Below, in pieces: positions 1 through 19,788 of a stretch of DNA of 20,494 nt. The stretch lies in the IMG/VR virus record IMGVR_UViG_3300029915_000163, positions 1-20,494 of that record. One strand, written 5' to 3'. A program made the position numbers and the translations under genes. The notes below the pieces were generated by a model. It had not been told where the DNA came from, made no database searches, and saw only the letters and a program-made list of their open reading frames with translations. Source of the stretch: a virus. Position 1 is the stretch's first letter, and every line of letters starts with the position of its first letter.

Positions 1-1461
1 CATTTGTGCTCGCAAAGCTTGAGCCATTACCCCACATTGAGCAGCAATAATGTTATAATCCCCAGAGTGCGGAAGATAATACTTCCCTGCCACTCTAATA
101 AAATTCATTATCGGATTGCTACCTTCAATCGTGGCAAGATGCCCTGCCAGATTCATTAAATCTGACTGTGCTGAAATGGTTGCCATACCAAGCCTACCCG
201 TTGCGCTCAGCGTCATAGCCCATTGATTAAAGCTAGTCCAAAAGTTCTTTTGAACAGGGGTGCGAGACTTTCCAGTTATCTCGTTAATGATCTTCTCTGG
301 CACAAGTCCAAGTATCCAATTTTTAGAAGTAACATCATTATGTAAAGCTTTTAGTGTACTGTTATCCTCTTGGTCTATGGCATTGTTTTCAATGAGCTTG
401 AAGATGTTCCGCATGTTTGCTTCTGCATTAATTCCCCAATCTCCTGCCAAAGCAATACGCTTGGCCATAGAAGCTAGGCTGGAAACAATTTGTTCACGGA
501 ATGATCTTAGCCCATATTTGTTGCTATAATTGTAAGCATCCAAGGTAGAATTAAAATGAATTGTCCTTTCGGCTGCGGCTTTCTTGGCAATGTTGCTTCC
601 TAAAGCTACTTTATGCGTATCAACCCCTTGTTCATATTCTTGATGCACACCTGAAATAATAGTACGGTACTTTGCTCGCATGAAGTCTTCCCACTTCTCT
701 TCATCGAGAGTACCGTAAGTATTGTAGGGGTTTAAGACAGGCATAATGTCCTTTGCCCATTGTTTAAATCCTGTATGGCGGATAACATCTGGGTCATGCG
801 TTTGTTGGCTGGAATAGCCTTGAAGTCTCGGAACAAACAAGCCTACCCGCTCACCCATCTTAAGGTACTTGTCCACTACCCCATGCACAACCTTCGCTAC
901 GGTCAAAGCGTCTTTGTTTCCAGTAAGGCCGAGATTACCCTTATCCTTGTTTAACTCGCTAAGCTCTTGTGCCACCTGCAATTCATCTATACCTTTAGAG
1001 AAATGACTACGGAGTCCCTGAGCATCTAAGGCACGATACAAGTCAGAAATAGCTTGATTTTCTAATGTTTTCATTCTCCTATCTGTAGAGAACTGCCCAT
1101 TATGCACCGTATCATAGGTGCCAAGGATATTACCAATAATGGTCTTAAGCTGGTCAGCCGCCTTCTCCTTGGTATTCACTAGAGCTATTTTAGTATCCCT
1201 AGTTTCCTTTTGCTTGATTTCCTGAAAGCTCTTTTGGAGTTTACCAATCTTTTCATCTTCGATTGCCTTGGCTAGAATCTGGGGGAGAATATCCCGCATG
1301 TTTGCATCTGGATTAAGCATCCGAGCTATCTTGCTAATCCGGTTAAGATTCGGGAGTAATTCTTGTGCTTCCTTTTCTGTAACCGCACCATTAGAAGCCT
1401 CAACAACTTGACCAATACAAGCCTTGTAAACCGTCTTCTCGAATTTATTTAAATCTGGCAT
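1..1461 (-). CDS. Partial large virion/ejection protein (runs off the left edge)
   Basis: An uninterrupted reading frame runs from the ATG at 1461 leftwards to base 1, giving 487 codons with no stop; the C-terminus lies outside the window. The product begins MPDLNKFEKTVYKACIG, is rich in Lys/Glu/Gln and probably helical or coiled-coil over its first 150 residues. It then has mixed segments including MGERVGLFVPRLQGY and a region around KIINEITGKSRTPVQKNFW. It follows the zincin-containing virion protein on the same strand, separated by only 1 nt. By position, after gp14-like and gp15-like proteins, it is the best candidate for part of the large ejection protein (T7 gp16 role) or another core protein. 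That role is inferred from order and size; I recognise no domain. A palindrome copy (601-613) lies inside this frame, encoding His-Lys-Val-Ala-Leu. Confidence 0.8.
   Translation of the reverse strand, partial: MPDLNKFEKTVYKACIGQVVEASNGAVTEKEAQELLPNLNRISKIARMLNPDANMRDILPQILAKAIEDEKIGKLQKSFQEIKQKETRDTKIALVNTKEKAADQLKTIIGNILGTYDTVHNGQFSTDRRMKTLENQAISDLYRALDAQGLRSHFSKGIDELQVAQELSELNKDKGNLGLTGNKDALTVAKVVHGVVDKYLKMGERVGLFVPRLQGYSSQQTHDPDVIRHTGFKQWAKDIMPVLNPYNTYGTLDEEKWEDFMRAKYRTIISGVHQEYEQGVDTHKVALGSNIAKKAAAERTIHFNSTLDAYNYSNKYGLRSFREQIVSSLASMAKRIALAGDWGINAEANMRNIFKLIENNAIDQEDNSTLKALHNDVTSKNWILGLVPEKIINEITGKSRTPVQKNFWTSFNQWAMTLSATGRLGMATISAQSDLMNLAGHLATIEGSNPIMNFIRVAGKYYLPHSGDYNIIAAQCGVMAQALRAQM
601..613. 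promoter_or_regulatory. Palindrome copy 1, TAAAG-CTA-CTTTA, intragenic
   Basis: It lies inside the partial ejection-protein gene, read as His-Lys-Val-Ala-Leu. It is a perfect 5+5 arm match. Confidence 0.6.
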
Positions 1462-1462
1462 A

Positions 1463-3607
1463 TTAATTAGTTTCAGTTACGCAACGAATGGCTTGGTTAT
1501 ATCCCGGCTGCTTTTGTTCTTCCAGCTTGTCAATTTTTTCAACAGTTGTCATCTTGGCTTCTGCCTCTTTAGGCTCTCCCGTAAGCTTCTTTTCAATCTG
1601 AGCTTTTTCGGCTTGCTCATAAGGCTTTAGTTGCTCTCTAACCGTCTGGTCTGCTGTCGTTTTGACAGGGGCAGGGGTCTGGGGTCTAGGCTTGGGGGTA
1701 GCTTCTAAAGCTACTTTACGTTGTAGGTCTTGGACACGTTTTTGAATTAAAGACTCTGTAGCCTTGCTATTTTCAAGAACATTTTTTAACCCTGATAAAT
1801 GCTCTATGGTTAATGTACCTAGCGATTCAGGTTCTTTTGGGTTCCTTGCTAAAAATAGTTCCCTAACATAACCACTAAATTGCGGATTCTTGAGTAATTC
1901 CCCTAGTTTACTTGCTTTAAAAATTCCTCTGCCACCATTGACATCTTTCATTACAATAGACCTATCTCCATACTTTGCAGCCATCGCGGAAAGATCATCC
2001 TTAGCTGTAAGGTAACTGTGTCCTTTTTCTTCTACATCTTTCCATGAACGAACAACAGTTGAATCAGTTGTTTTAGGTTTCTGTGCTTGGACAACCTTTT
2101 TAGGGCTATACTTAAAAGTTCCTAGTCTTGGTTCAGTAAGCTTTGCTTTTTCAGAATCAGTCAAAGTCCCTAGACGGAATAATTCGGCAATAGCTTCCTC
2201 TCTCTGGTGCGGGTCATTTATATCAGAATAACCGGGAGAAGCTGCTGCAATCTCTGAATGGTGTGCTTTAAGAATTTGTAGAATGTCATTTTTCTGAGCA
2301 TCACTAGACTTATCCCAAACTACATGGCCTAGTTCATGCAAGAATGTTCCCTTGGCATCGGTAGCATCTGGGTTAATTCTGATAGAGCCATCAGGTGCAA
2401 CACCCCCTTGTTGTGAAAGTTCAAATGAAGCTGGAGAGTCAATGCTAACTCTAGTGATACCAGAAGCTTTAGCAACAGCCGCAACAAAGGGGTCTGTTGA
2501 GGCTTCTTTTAAAGAGTTTGAAACTTCTGCCGAAGGTGGAAAATTAACTTCTAGGCTAATACTCCCTTTACTCTGAGGAATAACCGCAGGAGAATCAAAA
2601 CTTTCAGATGGTGCGGGTGTAGCAGGAGGTAAATCTACTTTAGGCTCCTCCAAAGGACTAACATAAGTCCCATCATCCATAGATTGTAGAACAGCCGCCC
2701 TTTGCTCTAAAGGCAAAGTTACCGGATGGCCTGCAATAGCACTTAAAGCTGCTTCATGCGCGACAATCCGCTTATCAAGGCCAACTAAGTCATTGATCGG
2801 GTCAAAGCTTAAATCTGACTGTGCTCTGGCAACAGAGGCTTGTGCCATTGCTGCTTTAGTTTCAGGCTGCAAATGATCTTCCAACTGTTGAAAAGCTGTA
2901 GGTACTTGAGGTTCACCCGCAACAGGTTCTTCCCGATAAGGCTTAAGATTATCTGCCCCAAAAAGACCATGCGTTAAGCCAAGGAACAAAGCCCCAGAAC
3001 CTAGACGCTGAGCCGCTTCGCTGAGTGACCAGTTATCATCCATTGCGTAGTGCAACGGCTCTGTAATGGCTGAGAAGGTAGCGGCTGTCTGTGCTCCTGC
3101 CACCATCCTAGCGGCTAGCCTAGAGGTAGCAGGCCCAACAATAAATCCCGGTCTAATCGGTGCAAACTTGGTTATGCCATCGGACAAAATGGCGGCACCA
3201 TCTTGGAAAGGGTCTAGAAGTCCTGCCGCTTGTGCTACCCCAGAACCAAGCCAAGTATTAGAGGCGGAAGCACTACCCCCTCTGGCAAGAGTGTCTTGTA
3301 AGCCAAAGGTAATTGCGTCTTGATTGGATTTAAACTGAGCATAGCTTCTAGAGACTGGTTCTGTAAACTTTGTCCTTCCACCGTTGCCAAACTCATTATT
3401 GGCTGCATCTGGATTAAGCATTTCCGAGCCGTCACGTTTAAGAGCAAAGCCTACATCCCCACGATAAACGTCACCTATCCAACTATCATTGACCGTTGAT
3501 AAGCCCCTAGAGATATACGTTGAAGGAATATCAGCAGCAGGCTGCATCCCGCTAGTGTCTTTAGCATCGTCTAAGGCTGAGTTATTTTGTGAGAAAGGGA
3601 ATGGCAT
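1463..3607 (-). CDS. Putative internal virion protein with an HExxH metallopeptidase-like motif
   Basis: The 714-aa product starts MPFPFSQNNSALDD. Its N-terminal third has small-residue and hydrophobic stretches (TWLGSGVAQAAGLLDPF; a segment near residues 145-220) resembling phage internal or ejection proteins. A zincin signature HELGH-VVW lies at about residues 424-428, in a context like that of phage-encoded ImmA/MuF-associated peptidases. The C-terminal quarter is Lys/Gln/Glu-rich and probably coiled coil. Known of the family: HExxH is the zinc-binding and catalytic motif of metallopeptidases. Inferred: a protease carried in the virion, possibly cutting a host or structural protein during entry. 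The ATG overlaps the palindrome at 3607 and there is no SD. The preceding gene ends 9 nt upstream, so translation is probably coupled. A second palindrome (1706-1718) lies inside the reading frame. Confidence 0.8.
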   Translation of the reverse strand: MPFPFSQNNSALDDAKDTSGMQPAADIPSTYISRGLSTVNDSWIGDVYRGDVGFALKRDGSEMLNPDAANNEFGNGGRTKFTEPVSRSYAQFKSNQDAITFGLQDTLARGGSASASNTWLGSGVAQAAGLLDPFQDGAAILSDGITKFAPIRPGFIVGPATSRLAARMVAGAQTAATFSAITEPLHYAMDDNWSLSEAAQRLGSGALFLGLTHGLFGADNLKPYREEPVAGEPQVPTAFQQLEDHLQPETKAAMAQASVARAQSDLSFDPINDLVGLDKRIVAHEAALSAIAGHPVTLPLEQRAAVLQSMDDGTYVSPLEEPKVDLPPATPAPSESFDSPAVIPQSKGSISLEVNFPPSAEVSNSLKEASTDPFVAAVAKASGITRVSIDSPASFELSQQGGVAPDGSIRINPDATDAKGTFLHELGHVVWDKSSDAQKNDILQILKAHHSEIAAASPGYSDINDPHQREEAIAELFRLGTLTDSEKAKLTEPRLGTFKYSPKKVVQAQKPKTTDSTVVRSWKDVEEKGHSYLTAKDDLSAMAAKYGDRSIVMKDVNGGRGIFKASKLGELLKNPQFSGYVRELFLARNPKEPESLGTLTIEHLSGLKNVLENSKATESLIQKRVQDLQRKVALEATPKPRPQTPAPVKTTADQTVREQLKPYEQAEKAQIEKKLTGEPKEAEAKMTTVEKIDKLEEQKQPGYNQAIRCVTETN
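1706..1718. promoter_or_regulatory. Palindrome copy 2, TAAAG-CTA-CTTTA, intragenic
   Basis: It lies inside the zincin virion-protein gene, read as Arg-Lys-Val-Ala-Leu. Confidence 0.6.
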
Positions 3608-3619
3608 AAAGTTACTTTA
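3607..3619. promoter_or_regulatory. Palindrome copy 3, TAAAG-TTA-CTTTA, gene junction
   Basis: It contains the TAA of the gp15-like gene and the A of the ATG of the zincin gene. The gap between the two genes is exactly filled by it. Confidence 0.8.
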
Positions 3620-6181
3620 GTACCCGTATATCCTAGGGGGAATATTATTGGCATCATGGTTATCAACTTTAGTGTTTGCTGCCTTATTAAGCATGTCATC
3701 AAAGGTACGCAAAGAATTAGGGACAGGTATCGCTTCGCGGCTGGCTGCTGGACCTTCCATCGGACGCATAGCCAAGTAAACGCCTGTCATGTCAGGAGTT
3801 GTTACCCAATAAGCCCTAGATTGAATGTCGTAGAGGGAAGCCTGTTGGCCCGGATTATTAAGAGCACCGAGCTTAGGCTCATCCTTGTCAGAAGATTCAT
3901 AACCAGTAGGGAATTTACTTGAAATGTCTAAAAGCTCTTTGTCTAATTGCCCCTTGATTTTGCTGGTATCCTCATCGGAATAAGTGCCGTTCTTACCTTC
4001 CCTATTGATAAGATAATTAACACCATTCGTTTGACCAAAATCAATATGATTGGAAACAGCACTTTTTACTGCGGCTGCTACAGCACTGTTATCATCATAC
4101 TTTGTACCAGCCGGAGGATTTAGATACAAGAATTTAGCATACTTGCCAATAGCATTAATTGTACTATTCGTCTGGTCAATATCCTGTTGTTTGTTACTTG
4201 CAACAGAATTTGCTTCCTTATACTTCATTAGTGTAGGGTCATTCCAAACTAGAGTATCAATCGACTTCTCATATTCAGGATGTTCCGTTTCGGCAAACCT
4301 CTTAGCATAACCGGGATTATCTTCTTTCTCCTTTTCCTTACCTTGACCGTTTCCATCTGGAATATTTACAGCCGTAAGAATGTCCCTTGTATTCGGCTGG
4401 TTTACATTGGCAGCAACCAAGCTAAGACCAGAGGGCAGGGGGTTCTTGGGGTTGTTGTGGAGTTGGCTTAAGGCATCTTGGAAGCGAGGGCCAAACTTTT
4501 CTTGCATGGAGTTTAGCGTCTGTGAAAGTTGGTCACTACTGGTTGTAGTTTTTAACTGTCCAATGTAAAAATCCGCATCATTCTTAGACATGACCATCGG
4601 TGCCGCATCTGGATTCAACTTGGCTTGCAAGGAAATAGAGCGTTCAACAGCTTGTTGACTTGCCGTATTGGAAATCTTAGGGTCAAGCTTGGCAGAGTCC
4701 TGTGCGGATTGCAGCAAGGATTGCATAGGCTTATCGTCTTGAACCGTAACACTGAAAGCATCATTTTGAATAGCCTTAACTCTTGCATCTGCAAATTTCT
4801 TCAAACCCTTTTCAACGTAGGTAGCGGAAGTAGGGTCTATGCCATCTGAAAAAGCTTTCAAGTCATCAACGGAAGCACTTTTAAGTGTAGTGGTTCCCTG
4901 ATTAATCTTTACACCATCTTGAACCTTTTGGTTAAAGTCAGCTTGGAAAGATCGAACTTTATCCAAAGTCTCAATAGGATTTTCTCCTGATTTCATTACC
5001 GGAAGGTAATTTAAATAATTTGAATCAGAGGCTTCCTGTGGAGTTATTTCATGGTTGGGGTCAGATAAGCTCTTAAGGAAGTTGTTCTTGGCTTCTTTTG
5101 TTGGGTATTTGTTCTCAATCTGTGCAGAAATTTGGTCTAGTTGTTGCTGAGCCTGAAATTTATCCTCTGCCGTTCCTGCTTCCCTCACAGCTTTAGCAGC
5201 ATAGCCTACACCGTCACTACCATAAGCTAAAGTAGCTTTATTGTTCAAATTGGTTTCAGCTACGGGGTCACGTTGGCCACTAGCCTCTACACCTAAAACA
5301 TAACCCTGTACAGACTTATGGAAATCCGTAATGGCTTGATTCGTGTCCTCATGCTGCCTGCTTTGCAATTCATAAATCTGCGATTGACGTTGTGGGATAG
5401 AAAGAGAAGTGCCTAGTGTGCCATCAACGATACCTTTTGCAGCTACCCCAGCCCCAAAACGAGCCGTAACGGTATCAATTTCTGCCTTATCCGTCTGGAT
5501 ATTAAACCGCAAATTTTCCTCACGCCTAGCTGCATCGGGTACAATGCCTTGAGCATTAGCTGTCATTTGCATATGCTGCTCCCGCACGTTATCAAAGTAA
5601 GTTGTGTCTAAAGAACCATCCGTCTTGTACCCTACCCATGCCCCCTCACTGTTAGCAATCTTGTCAAGATTCTGTGCAGTATTCTGAAAACTCTGCACGC
5701 TCCAATCTGTACTAGCCTTGGCTTGCAAGTGCAAAGCATCTTCAAACATAGAAGCTCCCACCGTATTAAGGTGAGACATAACAAGATTTTTAGCATTTTG
5801 AGTAAGGTTCGGGTTTCCTGCAATGGCTTGTTCCTGATAAGCTGCAAATTGAGTCTTGTAGGTATCCGCGTAATTAACCCCCTTGGAAGGGTCTAGCGTA
5901 AAGGCTTGAGCCGCTTGCGCCATGTTCTGCCGCCAATCAACCTCTGCCTTGGTTGCCACTTGCTGAGCATAGAGAGCATCACGCTTATTGGAAATCTCCA
6001 TCATTTGATCTGAGAAATTATCAAGTGCGTTTCCAGCACCTTCAATAGCCCCACCTACTTGACTTCCAAAGTCTTGCGGAGTTGCCCTTGCGTCAACAGA
6101 AAGAAGACGTAGAGACGGTGTTGGGGCAGAGGAGGAGGGTTGCTCTGCTGCTATGTTACCGGAAGGGTCGTTGTATGCCAT
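3617..6181 (-). CDS. Putative large internal virion (core) protein, gp15-like by position
   Basis: The 854-aa product is rich in Gln, Asn, Ala and Asp, with long predicted-helical stretches and no signal peptide or membrane segment. It opens MAYNDPSGNIAAEQPSSS and has heptad-like regions such as QVATKAEVDWRQNMAQAAQAF and QLDQISAQIENKYPTKEA. It lies between a short Ala-rich protein of the gp14 type and the zincin protein, the position held in T7-like phages by gp15, a core protein ejected to form the trans-envelope channel. The role is inferred from length, composition and order. The ATG at 6181 directly follows a palindrome and has no SD. The stop (3617-3619) is the outer TAA of the next palindrome. 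A further palindrome (5228-5240) is inside the gene, encoding Lys-Ala-Thr-Leu. Confidence 0.8.
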   Translation of the reverse strand: MAYNDPSGNIAAEQPSSSAPTPSLRLLSVDARATPQDFGSQVGGAIEGAGNALDNFSDQMMEISNKRDALYAQQVATKAEVDWRQNMAQAAQAFTLDPSKGVNYADTYKTQFAAYQEQAIAGNPNLTQNAKNLVMSHLNTVGASMFEDALHLQAKASTDWSVQSFQNTAQNLDKIANSEGAWVGYKTDGSLDTTYFDNVREQHMQMTANAQGIVPDAARREENLRFNIQTDKAEIDTVTARFGAGVAAKGIVDGTLGTSLSIPQRQSQIYELQSRQHEDTNQAITDFHKSVQGYVLGVEASGQRDPVAETNLNNKATLAYGSDGVGYAAKAVREAGTAEDKFQAQQQLDQISAQIENKYPTKEAKNNFLKSLSDPNHEITPQEASDSNYLNYLPVMKSGENPIETLDKVRSFQADFNQKVQDGVKINQGTTTLKSASVDDLKAFSDGIDPTSATYVEKGLKKFADARVKAIQNDAFSVTVQDDKPMQSLLQSAQDSAKLDPKISNTASQQAVERSISLQAKLNPDAAPMVMSKNDADFYIGQLKTTTSSDQLSQTLNSMQEKFGPRFQDALSQLHNNPKNPLPSGLSLVAANVNQPNTRDILTAVNIPDGNGQGKEKEKEDNPGYAKRFAETEHPEYEKSIDTLVWNDPTLMKYKEANSVASNKQQDIDQTNSTINAIGKYAKFLYLNPPAGTKYDDNSAVAAAVKSAVSNHIDFGQTNGVNYLINREGKNGTYSDEDTSKIKGQLDKELLDISSKFPTGYESSDKDEPKLGALNNPGQQASLYDIQSRAYWVTTPDMTGVYLAMRPMEGPAASREAIPVPNSLRTFDDMLNKAANTKVDNHDANNIPPRIYGY
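5228..5240. promoter_or_regulatory. Palindrome copy 4, TAAAG-TAG-CTTTA, intragenic
   Basis: It lies inside the gp15-like gene, read as Asn-Lys-Ala-Thr-Leu, a different peptide from copies 1 and 2. Confidence 0.6.
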
Positions 6182-6193
6182 AAAGTTACTTTA
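6181..6193. promoter_or_regulatory. Palindrome copy 5, TAAAG-TTA-CTTTA, gene junction
   Basis: It bridges the gp14-like stop (outer TAA) and the gp15-like ATG. Confidence 0.8.
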
Positions 6194-6715
6194 GAAAGTA
6201 GGTTGAGCCGTATCTGTGGTTGATCCAAAAACGGGTTGTACACTAGGTTGTCCAAAAGAAGATTGGTACTGTCCTGCGGCTTTACCTAAACCGGAAAGCA
6301 ATGCAGAACCTCCGCCAATCATGCCAGCCGTTTGAGCACTAGAAGCCTGCATAGAGTCCAGCGTGCTTTGATTCTCTGCATTATAAGCTCCTATTTGGCC
6401 ACGATACCTAATAGCCAAGGCTGCTTTGTCATTTTGCACAAGATCGTTGTATTGAATATCCGTAGAGCTACCACCCATCAAGCCACTAGCGGCGGCTGCT
6501 GCACGAGCCTTGCCTTGAATCATTTCCCCTTGCTGTTCTATATTAGCCGCATCAACTTGACCTTGCTGGTTTTGAATCTGAGCATTATACTTCTCCATCT
6601 GAGAATTATAATCAGCTGCCTTGGATTGAGCTTGTGCCTGCATGACGGTGCCTGCTGCGGCTGCGGCTGCGGCTGCTATAGTCACCCCTATCGCGATTGC
6701 TGGAATTGCTGGCAT
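6191..6715 (-). CDS. Internal virion protein B (T7 gp14-like)
   Basis: The 174-aa product begins with a hydrophobic Ala-rich segment (PAIAIGVTIAAAAAAAAGTV, residues 5-24). A Gln/Ala-rich helical region follows (QAQAQSKAADYNSQMEKYNAQIQNQQGQVDAANIEQQGE, residues 26-64), then a Gly/Ser-rich section with AAAAASGLMGGSS and a Gly-rich hydrophobic patch GMIGGGSALLSGLGKA. This layout is typical of the small ejected core protein gp14 of T7-like phages, which inserts into the outer membrane. The recognition rests on pattern and on position between the Gp13-like and gp15-like genes. ATG 6715 overlaps a palindrome. The previous gene's TAA here is the central TAA of that palindrome rather than the outer one. 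No SD precedes the ATG. Confidence 0.8.
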   Translation of the reverse strand: MPAIPAIAIGVTIAAAAAAAAGTVMQAQAQSKAADYNSQMEKYNAQIQNQQGQVDAANIEQQGEMIQGKARAAAAASGLMGGSSTDIQYNDLVQNDKAALAIRYRGQIGAYNAENQSTLDSMQASSAQTAGMIGGGSALLSGLGKAAGQYQSSFGQPSVQPVFGSTTDTAQPTF

Positions 6716-6727
6716 AAAGTTACTTTA
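6715..6727. promoter_or_regulatory. Palindrome copy 6, TAAAG-TTA-CTTTA, gene junction in another frame
   Basis: It overlaps the gp14-like ATG. The Gp13-like gene stops at the central TAA (6722-6720), not at the outer one. Confidence 0.8.
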
Positions 6728-7124
6728 GTATCATCAGGTGTACCTTATCACCCTCTTTTTTTACCTTAGTGAAACCAATGGACTCACACCATCTAACGTG
6801 AAAATCATCTGGTACTTGAATCTGAATGGCATCAAATTTAAAGTCACGAAAAGCGTCTAGGATAACTTGCCTAGCAGAACGATGTGGAGCCAATGGAAAC
6901 TTACGCAATAGTGCCGGATGGCTAATCATCCAAGCGTCACCGATTGCCTTCGTAAGAGGATACACGCCATGAAGCGAGAAGCAATTACCCATGTAAAAAG
7001 AGCCGCGAGTCAAGCCTTTGATGCACAATGTTCCCGCTATGGGAATAAGCATACCCGTACCGGGAATTTGCTTAGCCATCTTTTCAAACTCTTCAAACTT
7101 AATATAGCGTGAATATAAGTCCAT
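6720..7124 (-). CDS. Gp13-like (DUF2833/GNAT-type) small phage protein
   Basis: The start is taken at ATG 7124, giving 134 aa (MDLYSRYIKFEEFEK...). The frame is open further upstream, but those codons overlap the 3' end of the tail tubular B gene and do not look like protein. TAG of the upstream gene and this ATG are one base apart, suggesting coupled translation. The product has a compact alpha/beta look: a central GDAWMISHPALLRKFPL, then ARQVILDAF, and a C-terminal HVRWCESIGFTKVKKEGDKVHLMIL strand pattern, typical of GNAT-fold acyltransferase-like phage proteins. Its position before the gp14-like gene matches T7 gp13, a virion-assembly protein of unknown chemistry. Whether it binds acetyl-CoA cannot be judged; no clear Q/RxxGxG/A loop is visible. 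Confidence 0.7.
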   Translation of the reverse strand: MDLYSRYIKFEEFEKMAKQIPGTGMLIPIAGTLCIKGLTRGSFYMGNCFSLHGVYPLTKAIGDAWMISHPALLRKFPLAPHRSARQVILDAFRDFKFDAIQIQVPDDFHVRWCESIGFTKVKKEGDKVHLMILK

Positions 7125-7125
7125 A

Positions 7126-12728: not shown

Positions 12729-12984
12729 AATTTCCTTCTAGGATTGATTCTGTTACTTCTTCTACGGGTTGTTTGTGTGTGTGATTAAGAATTGCCAAGG
12801 CTAAAAGCCTTGACCCTTCATTAAGCAAAGTTTTTTCAGGATTGGTGGGATTAAAAGTGGTTGTACTAACGTAACCAATCTTACAAATATAAGACAAAAC
12901 CCTTTTACCTTCTTCCGTGCCAAAGGTTGTGGCAAAATCAGCATGGAGCCTTTTGCGCCGAAAAATAGCATCCTTGATATTCAT
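12718..12984 (-). CDS. Bbp19-like small phage protein
   Basis: The 88-aa product contains FGTEEGKRVLSYICKIGYV, then TTTFNPTNPEKTLLNEGSRLLALAIL. This is the pattern of the Bbp19 family of small podovirus proteins (G-x-x-VL-x-x-L, then F-N-x-x-x-x-x-x-x-NEG-x-R-x-x-x-L). Members lie between portal and scaffold/capsid genes; the function is unknown and assembly-related by context. Here too it lies just before the scaffold. The ATG at 12984 overlaps palindrome 12984-12996, whose outer TAA is the stop of the preceding gene, and there is no SD. Confidence 0.75.
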   Translation of the reverse strand: MNIKDAIFRRKRLHADFATTFGTEEGKRVLSYICKIGYVSTTTFNPTNPEKTLLNEGSRLLALAILNHTHKQPVEEVTESILEGNYGN

Positions 12985-12996
12985 AAAGCTACTTTA
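12984..12996. promoter_or_regulatory. Palindrome copy 10, TAAAG-CTA-CTTTA, gene junction
   Basis: It joins the stop of the 86-aa gene to the ATG of the Bbp19-like gene. Confidence 0.8.
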
Positions 12997-13254
12997 CTGT
13001 TCCAAACAGTAATTGAGACAAATAGACCACTTACCCCATTTTAAGCCAACTGTCCTTGTAGGATGAATACTTAGTTCATAATCTAAAGGATTAATAATAA
13101 TCCTTGGATAAAAAAAGAAAGGGTGTTTAATTCCTGTTTCTCTCCCTTTCCAATCTTTACTTGAATCACTATGAAAACTAAACCCATAGTGTAATTTTCC
13201 TAAGTTAAAATACTTAGTTTGATAATTGCTACAATTCCAATCGTTAGTAGTCAT
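12994..13254 (-). CDS. Hypothetical small late protein
   Basis: The 86-aa product (MTTNDWNCSNYQTKYFNLGKLHYGF) is rich in Tyr, Trp, Phe and His, with beta-like alternation and no recognised motif. It is placed between portal and the Bbp19-like gene, with palindromes at both ends. The ATG at 13254 overlaps a palindrome and its TAA is part of the next one. Its position within the morphogenesis operon and proper junctions support a real gene. Codon usage looks more AT-rich than that of its neighbours, suggesting a later insertion. Confidence 0.7.
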   Translation of the reverse strand: MTTNDWNCSNYQTKYFNLGKLHYGFSFHSDSSKDWKGRETGIKHPFFFYPRIIINPLDYELSIHPTRTVGLKWGKWSICLNYCLEQ

Positions 13255-13266
13255 AAAGTAACTTTA
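13254..13266. promoter_or_regulatory. Palindrome copy 11, TAAAG-TAA-CTTTA, gene junction
   Basis: It joins the portal stop to the ATG of the 86-aa gene, 257 bp from copy 10. Confidence 0.8.
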
Positions 13267-14958
13267 CTGTTGAGGAGCACCAACCAACTGAGGCGAGGCT
13301 TGGGCAGCTTGACCTACGTTCTTAAGCGAAGTGGAAGCACTCTCAGCCGCTTGCAACTGTTGCTGTTGCTGTTGCTGTTCTGCCCTATCCTTGCGGATAG
13401 CTGCAACCTCTTGCGGAGTTCTAAATATCTTGCGTGTCACGCCAGAGAGGTAAGCCGATTCCGCAACGACTTCATCCATATCAACCGAGTCTTTAACTTC
13501 CGGTGCAACCTGTGCCATCGGTACAACCGTTTCAGTAATGAATGACCGGAGTGCTCCAAGCTTCCCGCTCTTGATAGCTTGAGCCGCACGCGAGACATAA
13601 ACAATCTTAAGTTGCTTGCCTTTAATCTTGATTGGATGAGGCGGAATCTTACCCCATTGCGTGAGTAAGTCGTAAGTCCTCATAATCATCGGGCCTAGCA
13701 ACTCTGCTTCCTGCCTGCCAACGAGAGGAGCAATATTCCGTAGAATGGAGTCCTGTTGTGCTTGAATTTCAGCCGTTGTTTGACGCTCCTTCTTGAACGG
13801 AATACTGCCCAAATCCGCATAAAAAATTTCCTTAACAACTGACCGTCTTTCTTCCTGTCTTTCGTTGCTGGTAGTGAGACTTACCGGGGGAGACAAAGGA
13901 CGAAAAGCATCTGTCGGAAGGCCAAGGGAAGAGTCATAATAATTAACGGCTCCCGGCGTTTGATCAAGCTGAGACATGAAGGCGTCATGCGGCGCAATCA
14001 TAGCGGGGTCAGTATTTTTCTGATCTGCCCGTAAAGCTATCTTCTCATTCTGATTAAGAATACGAACAGTAGGCAAAGCCGTCATTGCACAACTACGAGC
14101 GTATTGTTCCCCTTCGATCACTTCCCAACGTCCCGTATGATAGGGGAAAGTCCGATAGCCACCTTCCCAACAAATAAAAGGCTCATCATGGGCAGCAGGA
14201 CTGCCGCCACCACCACCGACAAGAGAACCACCTATGTAAATCCATACGCTCTTAAAGCGCATGTCTTTGGAACCTTTGCCCTTGGGGTTGCGTTCTTCCC
14301 TTGGCTCTACACAATGGATAAAGTCATTCTTAGGGCCATCTAAAGGAATCTTTTCGTCGGAAAGTTTTGGGGGAAGATTTTCTTTTCCAAAACGCTCAAT
14401 GGCTTGCCGCTTTGTCCATTGGACACGCCGATAAACTTTATTGATACGTCCCTTGTCGTCTTCTGAAATCCAAGTATTGCAAAGAGGGATACAAGAAAAA
14501 ACCGGAGAATCAATATCCTCGTCCCACTCTTGACATACCGTAGCTGTACCAAGGCAACCAATGGAAAGGAAATAGGAGTGAAGGCTTTGCTTATGGTTCG
14601 CTTGCGGGTTCGTGTAGCAGTTGGAAATTAAATCCGTCACTTGCTCACCCCAAGCCAAAACCTCCGGGTCTTCATTCAACTTTTCATTATGCAAGCGAAT
14701 CTGAAACCATTGCTCAAACGGATTGGCTACGGCTGCGTGCATCCCATTAGCAAACTGGTTGTTTGCCCAAGGCGCGGTTGAGTCATAAATTAATTCGACA
14801 AGGTAAGAACCCGGCTGCCGTGTTACCGTGAAATCATTGCTGTTAGGCCAAACTACATCTTTGCATTGCTGGTAAAGAGAATCCCAATTCCTCTGCCGAA
14901 CATCTTTCATGTTCTGCCAAGTCAAGATGTATTTCGTAGCGTCGGATTGGTCTAACAT
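13264..14958 (-). CDS. Portal (head-tail connector) protein
   Basis: The 564-aa product has the podovirus head-tail connector pattern: an N-terminal MLDQSDATKYILTWQNMKDVRQRNWDSLYQQC helix, YDSTAPWANNQFANGMHAAVANPFEQWF, SYFLSIGCLGTATV, and a clip/wing region with RWEVIEGEQYARSCAMTALPTVRILN. A stem helix region (TTAEIQAQQDSILRNIAPLVGR) and a Gln-rich C-terminal tail with an uninterrupted run of seven Gln near residue 530 follow. Length is as usual for T7/BPP-1-type portals. It forms the dodecameric ring through which DNA is packaged and ejected. The ATG is 1 nt from palindrome 14960-14972 and has no SD at normal spacing. The Gln tract (repeated CAA/CAG) is a simple repeat likely to vary in length. 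Confidence 0.92.
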   Translation of the reverse strand: MLDQSDATKYILTWQNMKDVRQRNWDSLYQQCKDVVWPNSNDFTVTRQPGSYLVELIYDSTAPWANNQFANGMHAAVANPFEQWFQIRLHNEKLNEDPEVLAWGEQVTDLISNCYTNPQANHKQSLHSYFLSIGCLGTATVCQEWDEDIDSPVFSCIPLCNTWISEDDKGRINKVYRRVQWTKRQAIERFGKENLPPKLSDEKIPLDGPKNDFIHCVEPREERNPKGKGSKDMRFKSVWIYIGGSLVGGGGGSPAAHDEPFICWEGGYRTFPYHTGRWEVIEGEQYARSCAMTALPTVRILNQNEKIALRADQKNTDPAMIAPHDAFMSQLDQTPGAVNYYDSSLGLPTDAFRPLSPPVSLTTSNERQEERRSVVKEIFYADLGSIPFKKERQTTAEIQAQQDSILRNIAPLVGRQEAELLGPMIMRTYDLLTQWGKIPPHPIKIKGKQLKIVYVSRAAQAIKSGKLGALRSFITETVVPMAQVAPEVKDSVDMDEVVAESAYLSGVTRKIFRTPQEVAAIRKDRAEQQQQQQQLQAAESASTSLKNVGQAAQASPQLVGAPQQ

Positions 14959-14959
14959 A

Positions 14960-14972
14960 TAAAGTTACTTTA
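14960..14972. promoter_or_regulatory. Palindrome copy 12, TAAAG-TTA-CTTTA, gene junction
   Basis: It contains the stop of the 85-aa gene; the portal ATG is 1 nt beyond. Confidence 0.8.
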
Positions 14973-15227
14973 GCCTCCCAAGAGCGTTGACTTCTGAACT
15001 GATCCTGAAGGAGTAGGATTTGCCGCACCTGTCAAAAGAGTAGAAGCATAAGTCAAACCCAGAGGGTCGCCATGCAAGGCTTGCTGATTAACGGCTGTAG
15101 CCGCCGCCGCATCAGCCGAAGGCACCGGAGGCGGAGGAGTGGGGGCAGGAGTGCTACCCCCAAACAAACCGCTCTTTTGATGCTGCTCTTGTTCGTAAGA
15201 CTGAAAATTATTTTGCTCTTGGTTCAT
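14970..15227 (-). CDS. Small Pro/Ala-rich late protein between GNAT-like and portal genes
   Basis: The 85-aa product has a Gln/Glu-rich start (MNQEQNNFQSYEQEQHQKSGLFGG), then a Pro/Ala-rich linker with TPAPTPPPPVPSADAAAATAV, then LTYASTLLTGAANPTPSGSVQKSTLLGG. Short disordered proteins ending in a T/S-K-T/S-LLG motif are common in this place in podoviruses; no function is established. The start overlaps the end of the upstream gene by 20 bp, so translation is probably coupled. The stop lies in palindrome 14960-14972. Confidence 0.7.
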   Translation of the reverse strand: MNQEQNNFQSYEQEQHQKSGLFGGSTPAPTPPPPVPSADAAAATAVNQQALHGDPLGLTYASTLLTGAANPTPSGSVQKSTLLGG

Positions 15228-15651
15228 AGTATCTCAGTATTTTTTTCGTATGGTATATATGTACTCTATCACCCTCCCGTTGGAAGGCAAGATAATCTTT
15301 CCAGCCTAACCGCTTGGCATAAATCTCTGTCATGGCAGGAACCATAGAGCAGGGGTTTATGATGAGGTCAACAAAGAAGCAATCACCTTCAAGGTAGTAG
15401 TAGTAGGCAGGAATATATCCAAGCTGGATAAAGTCACTAGCAACAGGTCTTCCCATAATAAGAGATGTAATCTTACAGTCTTTTGTGCTGTAGCCAATAA
15501 CACAAAGGTTACTCTTGATAAACCAGCTTACCCAAGGCTCTAGCCGCCGAATATTCCAATCTTTGCAGACAGCATACTTATCTTTGATAAGCCGACAAAT
15601 ATCATCTTTGTCACTTTCCTTGGCTAAAGTAACTTTAGTGTGCAAATTCAT
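15208..15651 (-). CDS. GNAT-fold-like small phage protein next to terminase
   Basis: The 147-aa product (MNLHTKVTLAKESDKDDICRLIKDKYAV) has a C-terminal CFFVDLIINPCSMVPAMTEIYAKRLGWKDYLAFQREGDRVHIYHTKKIL. This resembles the beta4-alpha3-beta5 portion of GNAT acyltransferases as seen in podovirus genes between terminase and portal. No acetyl-CoA loop is clear, so activity is uncertain. It shares the ending EGD-(R/K)-VH with the Gp13-like protein at 6720-7124, and the two may be distant homologues. ATG 15651 overlaps the terminase stop by 17 bp, and the palindrome in the overlap is translated here as Thr-Lys-Val-Thr-Leu-Ala. Confidence 0.7.
   Translation of the reverse strand: MNLHTKVTLAKESDKDDICRLIKDKYAVCKDWNIRRLEPWVSWFIKSNLCVIGYSTKDCKITSLIMGRPVASDFIQLGYIPAYYYYLEGDCFFVDLIINPCSMVPAMTEIYAKRLGWKDYLAFQREGDRVHIYHTKKILRYYEPRAK
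15625..15637. promoter_or_regulatory. Palindrome copy 13, TAAAG-TAA-CTTTA, overlapping genes
   Basis: It holds the large-terminase stop and is simultaneously translated near the start of the overlapping GNAT-like gene. Confidence 0.8.
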
Positions 15652-17170
15652 TGTAGTTTGTGATACTCCTATTCATTTCGCCCATCTTCTTTTTACGGAA
15701 AAGTGTTACTTCATTAAATCCCATTGCCCCACAACGCAAGGCGTCTGCTTTGTGACTTGCCCAATCATGCACCGGATTTTCCTTAAAGACTTGATGCTTT
15801 TCGTCAAATTCTTTTCGGTATGAGCGTATCCCATCAATAAGTTTTTCACAACGTCCTTTGTCAATCCAGCAACGCATGAGAAACGAGCGTGTCGTTTCGA
15901 TACCGTCCTCAATCGAATGTTTAGGAACAAGCCGAAACTTAATTCCAAGCTTGCGTGCCTGCTCTAGCTTGTTCTTACCATCCCCTCCCATGTACTCCCT
16001 CTGAGCCAAGTCATGCGGGCCGTAGTGCGTTTCGTAACAATAGCCAAGCTCCCTTGCTTTCTTGTCCATGATCGCAACGTAATGCGGAAAGCCTTCACCC
16101 TGATTGCTGTAATGATCTATCAAGTGAACTTCCTTGGCCACCGCTTGAAAGAAAATAATATCGGTGGAGTCATGGCCAATGTCCCACATGGTATAAACCA
16201 AACCATGATTATCAAAAGGAACATTAGTAATTCGAATCGTGCCTTCAATGGGCAAGCCGTCATCCCCGATTGAACCTTTTTCCATCTTGTCAATAATTGC
16301 ACCGTAGTACGAACCGGGCATAGGGGCATCAGCACTTCCGTAGTATTCCGACTGTACCGTTTCTTCCGGCATCCCGTCATCCCTGTCCTCTTGAATTTGT
16401 TCTTGGCTGACAACAGGACGAGGAACAAAAACCTTTTGTTTTGTCTCTTCATCAACTTCCGTTGTCTCAACCAGCTTATAAGTGTCTTCCACAGTAAGAA
16501 GCTGCACAAACCATTTCGGATTGGTCTTGTGCTTCTGCATCATCTTGTAAGCATGGTTTCTTCCGCGCATGGTAAAGATGAAAATTGCCCAACCCCCGTT
16601 TGCGTTAAGCATGGGCTTGTGCAGATGCCATGCCCTCTCTGGGCAAATGCTCCACTCAGAATAGACAATGCCAAAGGGATTAGGGCCAACGGTTGAGTCC
16701 GGGTCATCAAGTCCAATAATCTGATATGTCCCACCTGTCTCCCGCATTTCATGGGTCAGGGGGTCGCGGGTGGCTTTGAATTTAATTTGCATTAAATCCT
16801 GCCGTACACTCTCAACCAAAGACTCCTTTGCTCCCGGCTTCTTAAAACCGGGAAAATGGTCTAGGAAGGGTCTGCCGTCATCCGTTACACCATCCCAAAT
16901 TGTCTTTCGTCCCTGTAACTGCGTAGGGAAGCAATGCCAGTAAAGTCCGGGCCTCTCCATATTGGAAACGCCAATCTCATTAATGCTAAACAAATCCTTG
17001 CCTGCCCTTCGATGCCAGCAAAGACATTCCCTTAAAATATGATTACGCCTAGCCTGCCATGCGTCATCCTGATAAAGTCTCGGCTCCCACCGATACGGAA
17101 TCTGGATTAGTGTGCTGTTGTTGTCGGAAGCTAAATCCTCTAGCTGCTCTATATGGTTGGTTTCAGGCAT
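15635..17170 (-). CDS. terL: Terminase large subunit (packaging ATPase/nuclease)
   Basis: The 511-aa product has a Walker A-like CWHRRAGKD at residues 51-59. A Walker B-like hydrophobic strand GIVYSEW lies near residue 190. The RNase H-like nuclease domain starts at VYTMWDIGHDSTD (Asp about 330), followed by YGPHDL (Asp about 387) and DWASHKADALR (Asp about 476). These acidic residues are those expected to bind metal. The length is normal for the family. It cuts concatemeric DNA and drives it through the portal. The ATG is 5 nt past palindrome 17176-17188 without an SD, and the stop is the outer TAA of palindrome 15625-15637. Unlike T7, where terminase is late and downstream, it is near the head of the operon here. 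Confidence 0.94.
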   Translation of the reverse strand: MPETNHIEQLEDLASDNNSTLIQIPYRWEPRLYQDDAWQARRNHILRECLCWHRRAGKDLFSINEIGVSNMERPGLYWHCFPTQLQGRKTIWDGVTDDGRPFLDHFPGFKKPGAKESLVESVRQDLMQIKFKATRDPLTHEMRETGGTYQIIGLDDPDSTVGPNPFGIVYSEWSICPERAWHLHKPMLNANGGWAIFIFTMRGRNHAYKMMQKHKTNPKWFVQLLTVEDTYKLVETTEVDEETKQKVFVPRPVVSQEQIQEDRDDGMPEETVQSEYYGSADAPMPGSYYGAIIDKMEKGSIGDDGLPIEGTIRITNVPFDNHGLVYTMWDIGHDSTDIIFFQAVAKEVHLIDHYSNQGEGFPHYVAIMDKKARELGYCYETHYGPHDLAQREYMGGDGKNKLEQARKLGIKFRLVPKHSIEDGIETTRSFLMRCWIDKGRCEKLIDGIRSYRKEFDEKHQVFKENPVHDWASHKADALRCGAMGFNEVTLFRKKKMGEMNRSITNYNEFAH

Positions 17171-17175
17171 GATCT

Positions 17176-17188
17176 TAAAGTTACTTTA
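17176..17188. promoter_or_regulatory. Palindrome copy 14, TAAAG-TTA-CTTTA, gene junction
   Basis: It contains the stop of the candidate small terminase; the large-terminase ATG is 5 nt beyond. Confidence 0.8.
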
Positions 17189-17815
17189 ATCGTCAAGTGC
17201 ATTGACTTCTACAGCCGTAGCTTTTTCCATGATGGTGAGGGTGTTGTCCACTGTCTGCCCGAACAAGGCTTTGAGTTTTGCCGGTGTACCCGCATCTGTC
17301 CTAATGACTTTTTGTTGTGGTGCGGTATGGATAACTTGCACAGTCATTCCATGCTGAATTTCTGCCGTTACCTCAATGGACTTGAGTTCCGGCGTTTCAA
17401 ACTTGGATAACTGCATGCAAAGGCTTGCGTAGAATTTCTTGTCTGGTTGGGGCAAGGCATCTATAAGCTCAGGAGCAAGGTTCATGTCCACCGCACGATT
17501 GTAGGCTTCCAGCTTTGCTCTCTCGACTTTGGCTAGGAGTACCAAGTCAGTCGTAGGGGAGAAATTATATTGCTTGAAGACGGCACTAATCCGGTCAGAA
17601 GTTGTGAGTTTCTTTTTCTTGTTGGGAGAATCCCCAAGCATTGCCGTGTTATCATAAGTAACACCGAGCTTTTGCTCTAAGGTTCTAGGGTCTTGGGGAT
17701 TTACGCCGATCAGGGACAGGGCTTGGGAGCGTTGCTCCGAGGATACTGGTGGCGCAAGTAAATCCTCTTTGGTAACTTCTACCGGCTCTTTGTATTTTGC
17801 TTTTGGAGAAGGCAT
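17186..17815 (-). CDS. Candidate terminase small subunit
   Basis: I take ATG 17815 (209 aa, MPSPKAKYKEPVEVTKEDLL); an in-frame TTG two codons upstream (17821) is possible. The product is charged, with helical stretches (DRISAVFKQYNFSPTTDLVLLAKVERAKLEAYNRAVDM). A C-terminal beta-like part follows (KSIEVTAEIQHGMTVQVIHT), then a short helix (AKLKALFGQTVDNTLTIMEKA). There is no classical helix-turn-helix I can identify. The call rests on position immediately upstream of the large terminase and on size. It is the first gene of the late block, downstream of promoter-like sequences at 17924-17952 and 18094-18122. No SD precedes the ATG; the leader is A/T-rich. Confidence 0.55.
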   Translation of the reverse strand: MPSPKAKYKEPVEVTKEDLLAPPVSSEQRSQALSLIGVNPQDPRTLEQKLGVTYDNTAMLGDSPNKKKKLTTSDRISAVFKQYNFSPTTDLVLLAKVERAKLEAYNRAVDMNLAPELIDALPQPDKKFYASLCMQLSKFETPELKSIEVTAEIQHGMTVQVIHTAPQQKVIRTDAGTPAKLKALFGQTVDNTLTIMEKATAVEVNALDD

Positions 17816-17923
17816 ATTCAATAATTTAAAGCATGTTACAGGACACAGTTATTGTTGTTTGAGCATAATGACTTGAGCAATGGGTTGCAAGGCTCCTGCT
17901 TTTCTCATGCCTTACCGGGGCTG

Positions 17924-17952
17924 AGTGTAAAGTAGCTTTAAGCTTGGGTCAA
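17924..17952 (-). promoter_or_regulatory. Promoter-like element with palindrome in its spacer
   Basis: On the minus strand TTGACC, a 17-bp spacer and TACACT give a plausible sigma70-type promoter for the late block. The palindrome at 17928-17940 fills the spacer and touches the -10 box. A protein bound there would block RNA polymerase. The predicted start is about 100 nt before the first late gene. Confidence 0.5.
17928..17940. promoter_or_regulatory. Palindrome copy 15, TAAAG-TAG-CTTTA, promoter spacer
   Basis: It is non-coding and lies between the -35 and -10 boxes of the putative late promoter. Confidence 0.8.
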
Positions 17953-18563: not shown

Positions 18564-19499
18564 ATGAGATCAAGTAACTTTACAGACAAAGACTGGCTTA
18601 GCTGCCTCTCCCTGACCAACAAGCTGCCAGCCGCAACCAAGCCAAGACAAAGACACAAGCCGCAAGTCCCATATCCTGACACTTGCGTCACAAGCGCACA
18701 ACGACGACGCTTTACGGCCATCCAGCTAATTAACAAGCGCACTGTAGAATTGAATCAACAAGTCTTGGCCAAGCTGTCACAATTCCGTAAGTTTGGCACG
18801 AATGACCTAAATGCCAAAAGCCAAGATGCCATACAAACGCCAAGACATTTAAGGGAAGAGATTACAGCGTTAAGACGCAAAATTTATCGGGAAAAGTATC
18901 GCTTAGCAACCTATCAAGAAAATAGAAGCCTGAGCACTAAATTACACTATAGACCTGCAACCCTGTTCTTCCAATCTGACGACAACGCTTTCATCTGGCT
19001 TAAAGGATTACTTTCTAATCTCTACATGAAGAGAAGACGCTTTGTAGATAAGGACACACTAGCCATGTCTGGTAATGACCAAGACTCTAACGCATGGTCA
19101 CGCCTAAGACGATTGGCTAAGTGGACTCCAAACGCTTTCAAGGTACATCAAGACGATGGTCGCTGGCTCATCCTATTCATGCGGTCATGTCTCAAGAGAC
19201 TAGAGCGGGAACATGCCCAAAATAGCTACTTACCGCAAGAGAAGAAATTCAAGCCGGAAGGTCAGACATTTTGGGAACACTGGAGCTATGAAGAACTAGA
19301 GGCAATGTCAACCATGCGCGCCATTCAACGCCTAGCAGATAACCCTTGGATTCAATTACGAGAGGATGAGCGGGATTACCTCTGTAAACTTACTTTAAGC
19401 CTGAAAACGCATTTTCAGGGCATGTTTGTCGTAACAAAATCATTACAAATTTGTAATGTTCCACAAGTCGTTGCAGGACAAGCAAATAAAAATGAATAA
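18564..19499 (+). CDS. Basic protein of unknown function (rightward)
   Basis: I take ATG 18564 (311 aa, MRSSNFTDKDWLSCL); a TTG two codons earlier is also in frame. There is no good SD. The product is strongly basic, with Arg/Lys-rich helices (SAQRRRFTAIQLINKRTVEL, REEITALRRKIYREKYRLATYQ, MRSCLKRLEREHAQNS) and several Trp (FWEHWSYEE). A nucleic-acid-binding role is possible but no family is recognised. It is the first gene reading away from the divergent region, so it would be an early or regulatory gene. Near-copies of the palindrome occur at codons 3-7 (18570-18582, one mismatch) and at 19385-19397 (one mismatch). Its last 35 codons contain a perfect hairpin and an 18-bp palindrome. Confidence 0.7.
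   Translation: MRSSNFTDKDWLSCLSLTNKLPAATKPRQRHKPQVPYPDTCVTSAQRRRFTAIQLINKRTVELNQQVLAKLSQFRKFGTNDLNAKSQDAIQTPRHLREEITALRRKIYREKYRLATYQENRSLSTKLHYRPATLFFQSDDNAFIWLKGLLSNLYMKRRRFVDKDTLAMSGNDQDSNAWSRLRRLAKWTPNAFKVHQDDGRWLILFMRSCLKRLEREHAQNSYLPQEKKFKPEGQTFWEHWSYEELEAMSTMRAIQRLADNPWIQLREDERDYLCKLTLSLKTHFQGMFVVTKSLQICNVPQVVAGQANKNE
19400..19419. repeat. Perfect hairpin inside the 3' end of the basic-protein gene
   Basis: CCTGAAAA and TTTTCAGG form an 8-bp stem with loop CGCA, starting 3 bp after a one-mismatch palindrome copy. It has no U-run after it and is translated, so a terminator role is unlikely. Confidence 0.6.
19441..19458. repeat. Perfect 18-bp palindrome, operator-like
   Basis: CATTACAAATTTGTAATG is a perfect self-complementary 18-mer inside the last codons of the basic-protein gene. 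Its symmetry is of the size typical for a dimeric repressor site. It is unrelated in sequence to the TAAAG/CTTTA palindrome. Confidence 0.6.
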
Positions 19500-19788
19500 A
19501 TTTCCATGTTTTTCATGCCAAGCCATGCCAACATTAAATCCCTGTCCTTCGCGTCTTGCCTCTCAATTAGTGTAACCTCATGTCAGAATCTTTACACTTT
19601 ATGTCAAGTCCAATACACCGATTACACTGTGCTTAAAGTAGCTTTACCAATTTATGAGAGGTAACAACAAAAGATATAACATTGGCATGGCGATTGCCTT
19701 ATAGTTGGCACTGAGTAAATCGCGGCGAATGCCATAGGGAGCCGTTTAACCTTGGAATTAATTGCAGTACTACTACTACTAAAATAAA
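19500..19788. other. Leader region of the pentapeptide-repeat gene
   Basis: This 289-bp non-coding stretch contains a weak promoter-like ATGTCA-16-TACACT (19601-19628) followed by a palindrome at the expected start point (19634-19646), and an imperfect fold at 19683-19734 (TGGCAT...ATGCCA with inner GATT/AATC pairing). A short (TAC)n run with A-rich sequence directly precedes the ATG. No tRNA is found. Confidence 0.5.
19634..19646. promoter_or_regulatory. Palindrome copy 16, TAAAG-TAG-CTTTA, rightward arm
   Basis: It is non-coding, 142 bp upstream of the pentapeptide-repeat gene and just after a weak -10-like TACACT. It shows the element also serves plus-strand genes. Confidence 0.8.

Follow-up and report, generated by a model that had tools for sequence, protein, structure and literature searches.

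Dispersed 13-bp palindromes in a podovirus genome and a candidate ParB-like protein that may read them

Introduction

What reads a short palindrome that recurs along a viral genome? The question is raised by IMG/VR virus record IMGVR_UViG_3300029915_000163, of which positions 1 to 20,494 were analysed (the whole 20,494-nt stretch, hereafter the window) and in which a 13-bp palindrome, TAAAG-YWR-CTTTA, is dispersed. The same system of sites recurs in four phages that are nearly unrelated to one another and in one relative of these. We propose that the palindrome is probably the nucleation site of a phage-encoded DNA clamp of the ParB family, loaded at dozens of dispersed sites. Clamps of this family are familiar chiefly from the segregation of chromosomes and plasmids, as well as from Noc and the regulators KorB and VirB.

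Results

A Sharply Defined Palindrome in the Window and Its Source Phage

The window contains exactly 16 copies of TAAAG-YWR-CTTTA, with TAAAG and CTTTA arms that are perfect in all of them, and a search with an open centre (TAAAG-N3-CTTTA) returned the same 16 copies, every centre being YWR (TTA in six, TAA in four, CTA in three and TAG in three). A first-pass annotation had reported these copies, arms and centres, all of which were found as described, and had put their frequency far above chance. The latter claim is borne out by 100 dinucleotide shuffles of the window, in which TAAAG-N3-CTTTA had a mean of 0.00 copies and appeared in no shuffle, ruling out a chance origin for the 16 sites. 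Only six places in the window match with one mismatch in the arms; copies are thus near-perfect or else absent, and the palindrome is a sharply defined sequence rather than a drifting repeat. The motif is best written as TAAAGTWACTTTA, with a 6-1-6 architecture.

The window encodes late proteins of a podovirus (terminase, connector, capsid and tail), and its terminase gives a 100% match to IMG/VR contig 3300029913_000052 (G001, 41,015 bp), to which the window aligns at 99.97% over 11.6 kb and at 99.985% over 6.7 kb, joining the two ends of the contig. Extending the count to the rest of the genome, as the first-pass annotation had proposed, gives 36 copies in G001. These run through the late half and also through the early half, where the Pfam matches include helicase, primase and polymerase families, and a feature restricted to late genes is rejected. 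Fifteen of the 16 window sites map exactly to G001 sites and the other lies across the junction of the contig ends, such that the closed genome would hold 37. The G001 set is comparatively loose, comprising 21 strict copies of TAAAGTWACTTTA and 15 with other centres, 14 of which have C at position 6 or at its mirror position.

The earlier description of the sites as lying mostly at late-gene junctions suits the window, where 9 of the 16 overlap the start and/or stop codon of a listed open reading frame (ORF; simple longest-ORF calls) and those at 10586 and 11603 are intergenic. It is too narrow in that the sites at 601, 1706 and 5228 are within late genes, those at 17928 and 19634 lie to the right of the late block, and the early half of G001 carries sites too.

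Recurrence in Otherwise Nearly Unrelated Phages

At least five phages with dense sites are present in IMG/VR. Those other than G001 were found by scans for the DNA motif that made no use of gene homology, one of them (G024) only via a close pair of sites. In addition to G001, they are G003 (3300050498_000031, 47.8 kb; 68 copies, of which 67 are strict TAAAGTWACTTTA, and three one-mismatch places), G004 (3300035686_000005, 65.4 kb; 69 copies, 68 strict, and one one-mismatch place), G024 (3300025925_000002, 62.8 kb; 36 copies) and G006 (3300046395_000001, 43.5 kb; 29 copies with a freer centre, 13 strict), the last being a distant relative of G003 (terminase 53%). By blastp of called ORFs (E 1e-3), PolA is the only protein common to G001 and G003, and none is common to G004 and either of these. 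By blastp at the same threshold, G024 has PolA in common with G001 and G003 and also a ParB-like protein with G001, and no protein in common with G004. The possibility that the motif is general to relatives of the source phage was rejected: the closest relative by terminase in the phages collection, MW202510, lacks the motif (0 copies) and has no palindrome arm that occurs at least 4 times.

A third variant of the palindrome, TAAAGCWGCTTTA, occurs in six dispersed copies in G012 (L227, L228; 25.4 kb), a contig of which one protein is 34% identical to the polymerase of G004. Pairs of TAAAGCWGCTTTA in G008 and G010 were considered as a ParB-parS pair and rejected; the ParB_N match of G010 looks, by eye, to be fused to a methyltransferase, and the G010 sites belong to a local 45-bp repeat.

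Candidate Readers of the ParB Family

Dense sites and a predicted ParB-like gene occur together in all five dense phages, the protein being recognised by Pfam hidden Markov models in two and by profile comparison only in three. The first-pass annotation had advised a search for a phage-encoded DNA-binding protein, and the candidate that emerged in the source phage is P0001 (361 residues; G001 25628-26713, minus strand, outside the window), with predicted ParB_N and HTH_ParB domains. P0001 scores 31.1 bits against HTH_ParB (cut-off 22.6, E 2.7e-7) and 26.1 against ParB_N (cut-off 26.3, E 9.1e-6); its best PDB sequence match is KorB (8qa8, 2.1e-7), and it scores 13.6 bits against the KorB domain PF08535 (cut-off 22.3, E 0.065). 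P0002 of G024 scores 32.3 bits against ParB_N (cut-off 26.3, E 1.1e-7) and 22.4 against HTH_ParB (cut-off 22.6), with Noc as its best PDB sequence match (7nfu, 2.7e-10). Each of the two proteins has one ParB domain above the cut-off and the other just below it, and the predicted combination of a ParB_N fold with HTH_ParB places both in the ParB superfamily.

The remaining candidates are more remote. The family profile (A6) of P0004 from G004 matches a phage-ParB profile (A7; 96.4%, 1.2e-9), and three of the six phage homologues of P0004 are annotated Spo0J/ParB. P0003 of G003 is connected by a profile-profile match only (95.8%, 6.9e-9), and the ParB-like protein of G006 by a weaker profile match (88%, 3e-6). 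PF02195 had no match in G003, G004 or G006, and a search for related loci with P0001 and P0004 returned only the source contigs.

A Sister Palindrome That Changes with the Predicted Recognition Helix

The P0004 homologues belong to phages of Anabaena, Nostoc and Dolichospermum, and a sister palindrome, TAGAGTSACTCTA, is present in cultured Nostocales phages with ParBs related to that of G004. Whole records contain 35 (Elbi), 30 (A-1(L)), 29 (Dfl-JY23) and 29 (YongM) copies of TAGAGNNNCTCTA, and the whole N1 record contains 0; these TAGAGT counts cover five of the seven phages whose ParB is of the A-1(L) type (A1 and YongM2 being left out). All 64 listed copies, which come from A-1(L), YongM and Dfl-JY23, have C or G at the centre. 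A segment of the predicted helix-turn-helix (HTH), IYKRQHHYIRNLLRV, is identical in A-1(L), YongM, Dfl-JY23 and Elbi, whereas the N1 homologue, 45.5% identical to that of A-1(L) overall, has IYKKTPGNVRQLLLI at that segment. The set of sites changes along with the predicted recognition helix, i.e. the putative ParB-like gene and its sites co-vary; specificity in ParB and Noc depends on four residues (PMC7383237).

Site positions are also conserved among these phages. Among 39 orthologues of A-1(L) and YongM, a site is shared at the upstream junction in 6 (1.2 expected) and at the downstream junction in 11 (3.4 expected), and among 54 orthologues of A-1(L) and Dfl-JY23 the corresponding figures are 9 (2.7 expected) and 11 (4.1 expected), with 0 of 5000 permutations reaching the observed sharing in each test. 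The first-pass annotation had named absence of the sites from close relatives as evidence against its proposal; the proposal passes this test in the related TAGAGTSACTCTA system, where phages about 73% identical have sites in common at orthologous junctions.

In N1 (L212, record 14961-64960), 59 copies of an asymmetric element, CCCCGGAATCA, are dispersed over 50 kb in 45 clusters, either singly or as inverted pairs approximately 20 bp apart; the A-1(L), YongM and Dfl-JY23 stretches contain 0, 1 and 0 copies, respectively. The same stretch (L212 1750-2050) has five repeats of AATCCCT-N3-AGGGATT approximately 70 bp apart, resembling an array of clustered regularly interspaced short palindromic repeats (CRISPR).

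When 10 ParB-bearing phage stretches (28.5-50 kb) were scanned and the best four palindromes of each listed, a one-base-centred palindrome with at least 7 copies was present in four: A-1(L) (22 copies), YongM (22), Dfl-JY23 (20) and Milano (7). The best palindromes elsewhere include six copies of a 6-4-6 form in Versailles and four of a 7-11-7 form in Megabear. The Agrobacterium phage Milano encodes a Noc/ParB-like protein, and its palindromes, seven copies of ACAAATNATTTGT (L216 23396-34833), sit inside promoter-like sequences, between TTGAC and a TATA-like box.

Distribution and Spacing of the Sites

The sites avoid gene interiors, which hold 13 of 36 in G001 (28.9 expected), 22 of 68 in G003 (51.7), 15 of 69 in G004 (54.0) and 7 of 36 in G024 (30.1). 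The 57 interior sites of these four phages are all in one frame, encoding x-K-V/A-T/A-L, which is the frame where neither centre base makes a stop. Spacing in G001, G003 and G004 is more even than random, with coefficients of variation (CVs) of 0.57, 0.59 and 0.56 versus 0.96-0.98 for uniform chance (0 of 5000 simulations each); the CV in G006 is 0.75. Among the dense phages, the mean interval between sites is approximately 0.7-1.7 kb.

A preference for junctions, conserved at about 73% identity, could also be that of a phage repressor whose dispersed operators halt transcription within operons, in the manner of palindromic stoperators, for lysogeny and superinfection immunity, the reader being either the ParB-like protein or an unseen repressor. 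Specificity varies from TAAAGT in G004 to TAGAGT in A-1(L), TAAAGC in G012 and a different element in N1, and the repressor types of cluster A mycobacteriophages likewise differ in specificity among relatives; the promoter-embedded palindromes of Milano, alongside its Noc/ParB-like protein, would also suit such operators. However, the 57 sites inside genes and the even spacing in three phages do not suit them, and no integrase is found among the 25 families listed, of 33 Pfam families in all, for 28 G001 proteins. An immunity repressor of stoperator type, the nearest precedent named by the first-pass annotation, is not supported for a further reason, in that cluster A stoperators are asymmetric and bound by a monomer of a different fold, with HTH and stoperator domains (PMC9283540). 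Dispersed repressor operators are, in our view, unlikely, and "stoperator" is an analogy only; dense, even and position-flexible sites fit clamp loading over the whole genome better than they fit operators of single promoters.

Flanking Bases, Pairing and the Central Triplet

The bases flanking the palindrome are symmetric and phage-specific: C in 112 of 136 half-sites of G003 and T in 67 of 72 of G024 (G003 versus G024, P 1.2e-38), T in 39 of 58 of G006, C in 74 of 138 of G004 and C in 31 of 72 of G001. The statement of the first-pass annotation that the flanks share no extension thus holds roughly for the source phage, but not for phages with the same sites, whose flank preferences are strong. 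A flank base that varies by phage is what would be expected if every phage has its own reader. Watson-Crick covariation between positions -1 and +14 is not significant in G001 (11 of 36 versus 10.9 by shuffling), G004 (19 of 69 versus 26.6) or G003 (51 of 68 versus 47.4, P 0.08), which speaks against a hairpin and fits two half-sites read independently in duplex DNA. A hairpin element of the type found in phage N4 promoters was rejected on this basis. The symmetry of the motif, the missing hairpin covariation and the presence in dense phages of a predicted ParB-like protein, from a family that binds palindromes as dimers, all agree with the earlier proposal of a site for a dimeric protein.

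The same data bear on a translation or RNA signal, in which the element would overlap TAA...ATG and form a hairpin in mRNA or single-stranded DNA. Its attraction lies in the 9 of 16 window sites that overlap a stop and/or start codon, in G024, where an ATG comes 2 bases after 15 of the 36 sites (counted from the site listing), and in the central triplet, which on the gene strand outside genes is TAA in 74 and TTA in 31 cases (G001, G003 and G004 together). Inside genes, by contrast, the centre is unbiased (27 TAA, 24 TTA), and the bias outside may stem from TAAAGTAA giving stops in two frames. Together with the lack of significant pairing covariation and the 57 interior sites away from starts, this makes such a signal highly improbable.

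Host Reader or Partition System

A host-encoded DNA-binding protein could instead read a palindrome that unrelated phages of one host lineage had each gained, the ParB-like genes being coincidental. That phages with nearly disjoint proteomes have the same 13 bp would follow, and a ParB_N domain is no rarity among phages (3 of 12 non-dense records). The preferred flank base and the tolerance at the centre are nevertheless strongly phage-dependent, and among the cultured phages A-1(L) and Elbi, with PCC 7120 as recorded host, have 30 and 35 TAGAGT palindromes while N1 has none (its recorded host is written PCC7210, as is that of A1). One scan of genome contigs for paired sites did not find a motif-rich host chromosome: sites paired 15-45 bp apart occurred in eight stretches among 84,980 species genomes, and the seven genomes counted have just 2-6 YWR copies each. 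We regard a host reader as quite unlikely. The main clue to the host is a hint, the predicted kinship of G004 to Nostocales phages.

A classical ParABS system, partitioning a prophage that resembles a plasmid and has a great many copies of its centromere, would also join a ParB-like protein to palindromes. Cyanophage Mic1 encodes ParA and ParB and has a single putative parS, which is palindromic (PMC7156551), a phage ParB with a palindrome as proposed here; unlike Mic1, the present phages have tens of sites and no clear ParA. The ParA family PF13614 was above its cut-off in 0 of 10 phages, with weak partial matches in G003 (1.7e-4) and G004 (0.002), and G003 may yet encode a ParA, one of its proteins matching CbiA, a P-loop family of ParA type (3.1e-5). 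The PF13614 result makes partition unlikely notwithstanding the CbiA match, and with sites spread over the whole genome rather than clustered we consider it the least probable of the explanations weighed.

Discussion

A Proposed Clamp Loaded across the Phage Genome

A ParB-like protein, as judged from sequence comparisons, probably grips the palindromes; its binding, clamp behaviour and function are what we infer. In the source phage, a dimer of P0001 would read two TAAAGT half-sites via its predicted HTH, after which the clamp would close with nucleotide and slide, by analogy with ParB, Noc and KorB. ParB and KorB load at their sites and slide as cytidine triphosphate (CTP) clamps (PMC12704722, PMC11790492), KorB silences genes at a distance (PMC11790492), and Noc is a CTPase that nucleates on Noc-binding sites (NBS; PMC8429893). 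With sites every 0.7-1.7 kb or so, clamps could cover the whole phage genome. Their likeliest use would be KorB- or Noc-like, controlling or organising the phage DNA throughout the genome (by damping transcription in a coordinated way, by compaction or by tethering), rather than ParA-driven partition; conserved junctions at about 73% identity and the promoter-embedded palindromes of Milano fit transcription control. Clamp loading with a regulatory or organising use ranks first among the explanations considered, and we think it probable. A fuller version is held more tentatively, at somewhat short of an even chance: that a ParB-type clamp without a clear ParA, loaded every 1-2 kb or so genome-wide, coats or organises phage DNA (to protect or compact it, tether it to the membrane or control transcription globally), passes from one unrelated phage to another, and has its site sets rewritten when the recognition helix changes.

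Several observations weigh against a ParB-like reader. P0003, P0004 and the proteins of A-1(L), YongM and N1 score below the Pfam ParB cut-offs; six-frame comparison in pairs left the ParB-like proteins of G001, G003 and G004 unlinked, a search of PDB with profile A6 found no ParB, and AlphaFold models of P0003 and P0004 were useless (mean pLDDT 36 and 44). The profile comparison covered the ParB-like proteins rather than other DNA-binding proteins of the five phages. PF02195 (1e-3) also matches 3 of 12 virus records that lack dense sites (G007, G008 and G010, the G010 ParB_N protein being the apparent methyltransferase fusion), such that a ParB_N domain alone is not rare. Conversely, 6 of the 10 ParB-bearing stretches (N1, RG-2014, Megabear, DirtyBoi, ZHS and Versailles) have no one-base-centred palindrome of this kind among their best four, and G012, which has six TAAAGCWGCTTTA, gave no ParB-like match over its 25 kb. 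G003 and G006, a far more diverged pair, do not have their site positions in common, an upstream site being present in both phages for 6 of 21 orthologues (approximately 5.3 expected from margins of 14 and 8), and the sites of G024 are spaced no more evenly than by uniform chance (CV 0.86 versus 0.96, P 0.24; P 0.015 against a class-matched null).

Comparison with Known Systems

KorB of plasmid RK2, the best PDB match of P0001, is, like the proposed readers, a ParB-family protein with several dispersed sites (OB, about a dozen), at which it acts as a global regulator; here the half-site is TAAAGT, and the sites number in the tens and are carried by phages. The KorB operator oligonucleotide printed in PMC11790492 contains TTTAGCGGCTAAA, also a 6-1-6 palindrome, although OB is called 16 bp there. 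Noc of Bacillus subtilis, the best PDB match of P0002, shares with the proposed readers the ParB family and the many discrete palindromic sites, about 70 around most of the chromosome (PMC4331003). Noc sites are spread over a bacterial chromosome, whereas here 29-69 sites lie within 41-65 kb, mostly at gene junctions. Cluster A stoperators resemble the present sites in their 13-bp length, in many genome-wide copies and in the phage-encoded reader proposed here, and differ in their asymmetry and monomeric binding from palindromic arms with a ParB-like candidate. Phage phiC31 also has conserved inverted repeats dispersed across its genome, with a repressor of another family.

In the open-licence PMC literature no account of the system was found; among the titles listed, the motif strings appear only in unrelated papers, to judge by title (C. 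elegans promoters, bacteriocins, human and animal genes), and nothing links cyanophage ParB to dispersed palindromes. A phage version of these clamps with 29-69 dispersed sites per genome would, if true, add a role across the whole genome in infection and provide phage "ParB" genes, which are poorly annotated, with a testable function. Readers paired with their sites (TAAAGT, TAGAGT, and neither of these in N1) form a natural series for studies of protein-site co-change, and the culturable Anabaena phages A-1(L) and Elbi make the sister system directly testable.

Individual Sites and Other Features of the Window

The genes at the sites from 1706 to 17176 are on the minus strand. At the left of the window, the site at 601-613 (centre CTA) falls within a late gene that extends off the window, as it maps to G001 6097, inside ORF 5249-7813. 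The site at 1706-1718 (CTA) is inside late gene 1463-3607, and that at 3607-3619 (TTA) contains the stop TAA of 3617-6181 and the A of the ATG of 1463-3607. Late gene 3617-6181 has an internal site at 5228-5240 (TAG), and its start shares the site at 6181-6193 (TTA) with the stop of 6191-6715. The start of 6191-6715 lies in the site that bridges the two ends of contig G001 (6715-6727, TTA), whose upstream partner, ORF 6720-7202, is a doubtful call. At 9318-9330 (TAA) the site covers the stop of 9328-9978, with the ATG of 7126-9315 two bases on.

Two sites are intergenic, one at 10586-10598 (TTA) between late genes 10602-11513 and 9993-10562, the other at 11603-11615 (TAA) between 11883-12728 and 10602-11513. 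Stop and start codons meet again at 12984-12996 (CTA; stop of 12994-13254, start of 12718-12984) and at 13254-13266 (TAA; stop of 13264-14958, start of 12994-13254), while the site at 14960-14972 (TTA) covers the stop of 14970-15227 directly before the start of 13264-14958. The gene for the terminase large subunit (15635-17170; PHROG phrog_2, E 5.8e-14) has its stop in the site at 15625-15637 (TAA), and directly before its start is the site at 17176-17188 (TTA), which covers the stop of 17186-17821. To the right of the late block, the site at 17928-17940 (TAG) is outside the listed ORFs and that at 19634-19646 (TAG) is outside the main ones, in an ORF of 52 residues.

The small ORFs 6720-7202 and 15208-15651 have no PHROG match; their C-terminal parts look alike by eye (EGDKVH and EGDRVH), and they are possibly paralogues. 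In a pentapeptide-repeat gene at 19789-20169, the repeat array differs from that of the near-identical G001 (protein 91%).

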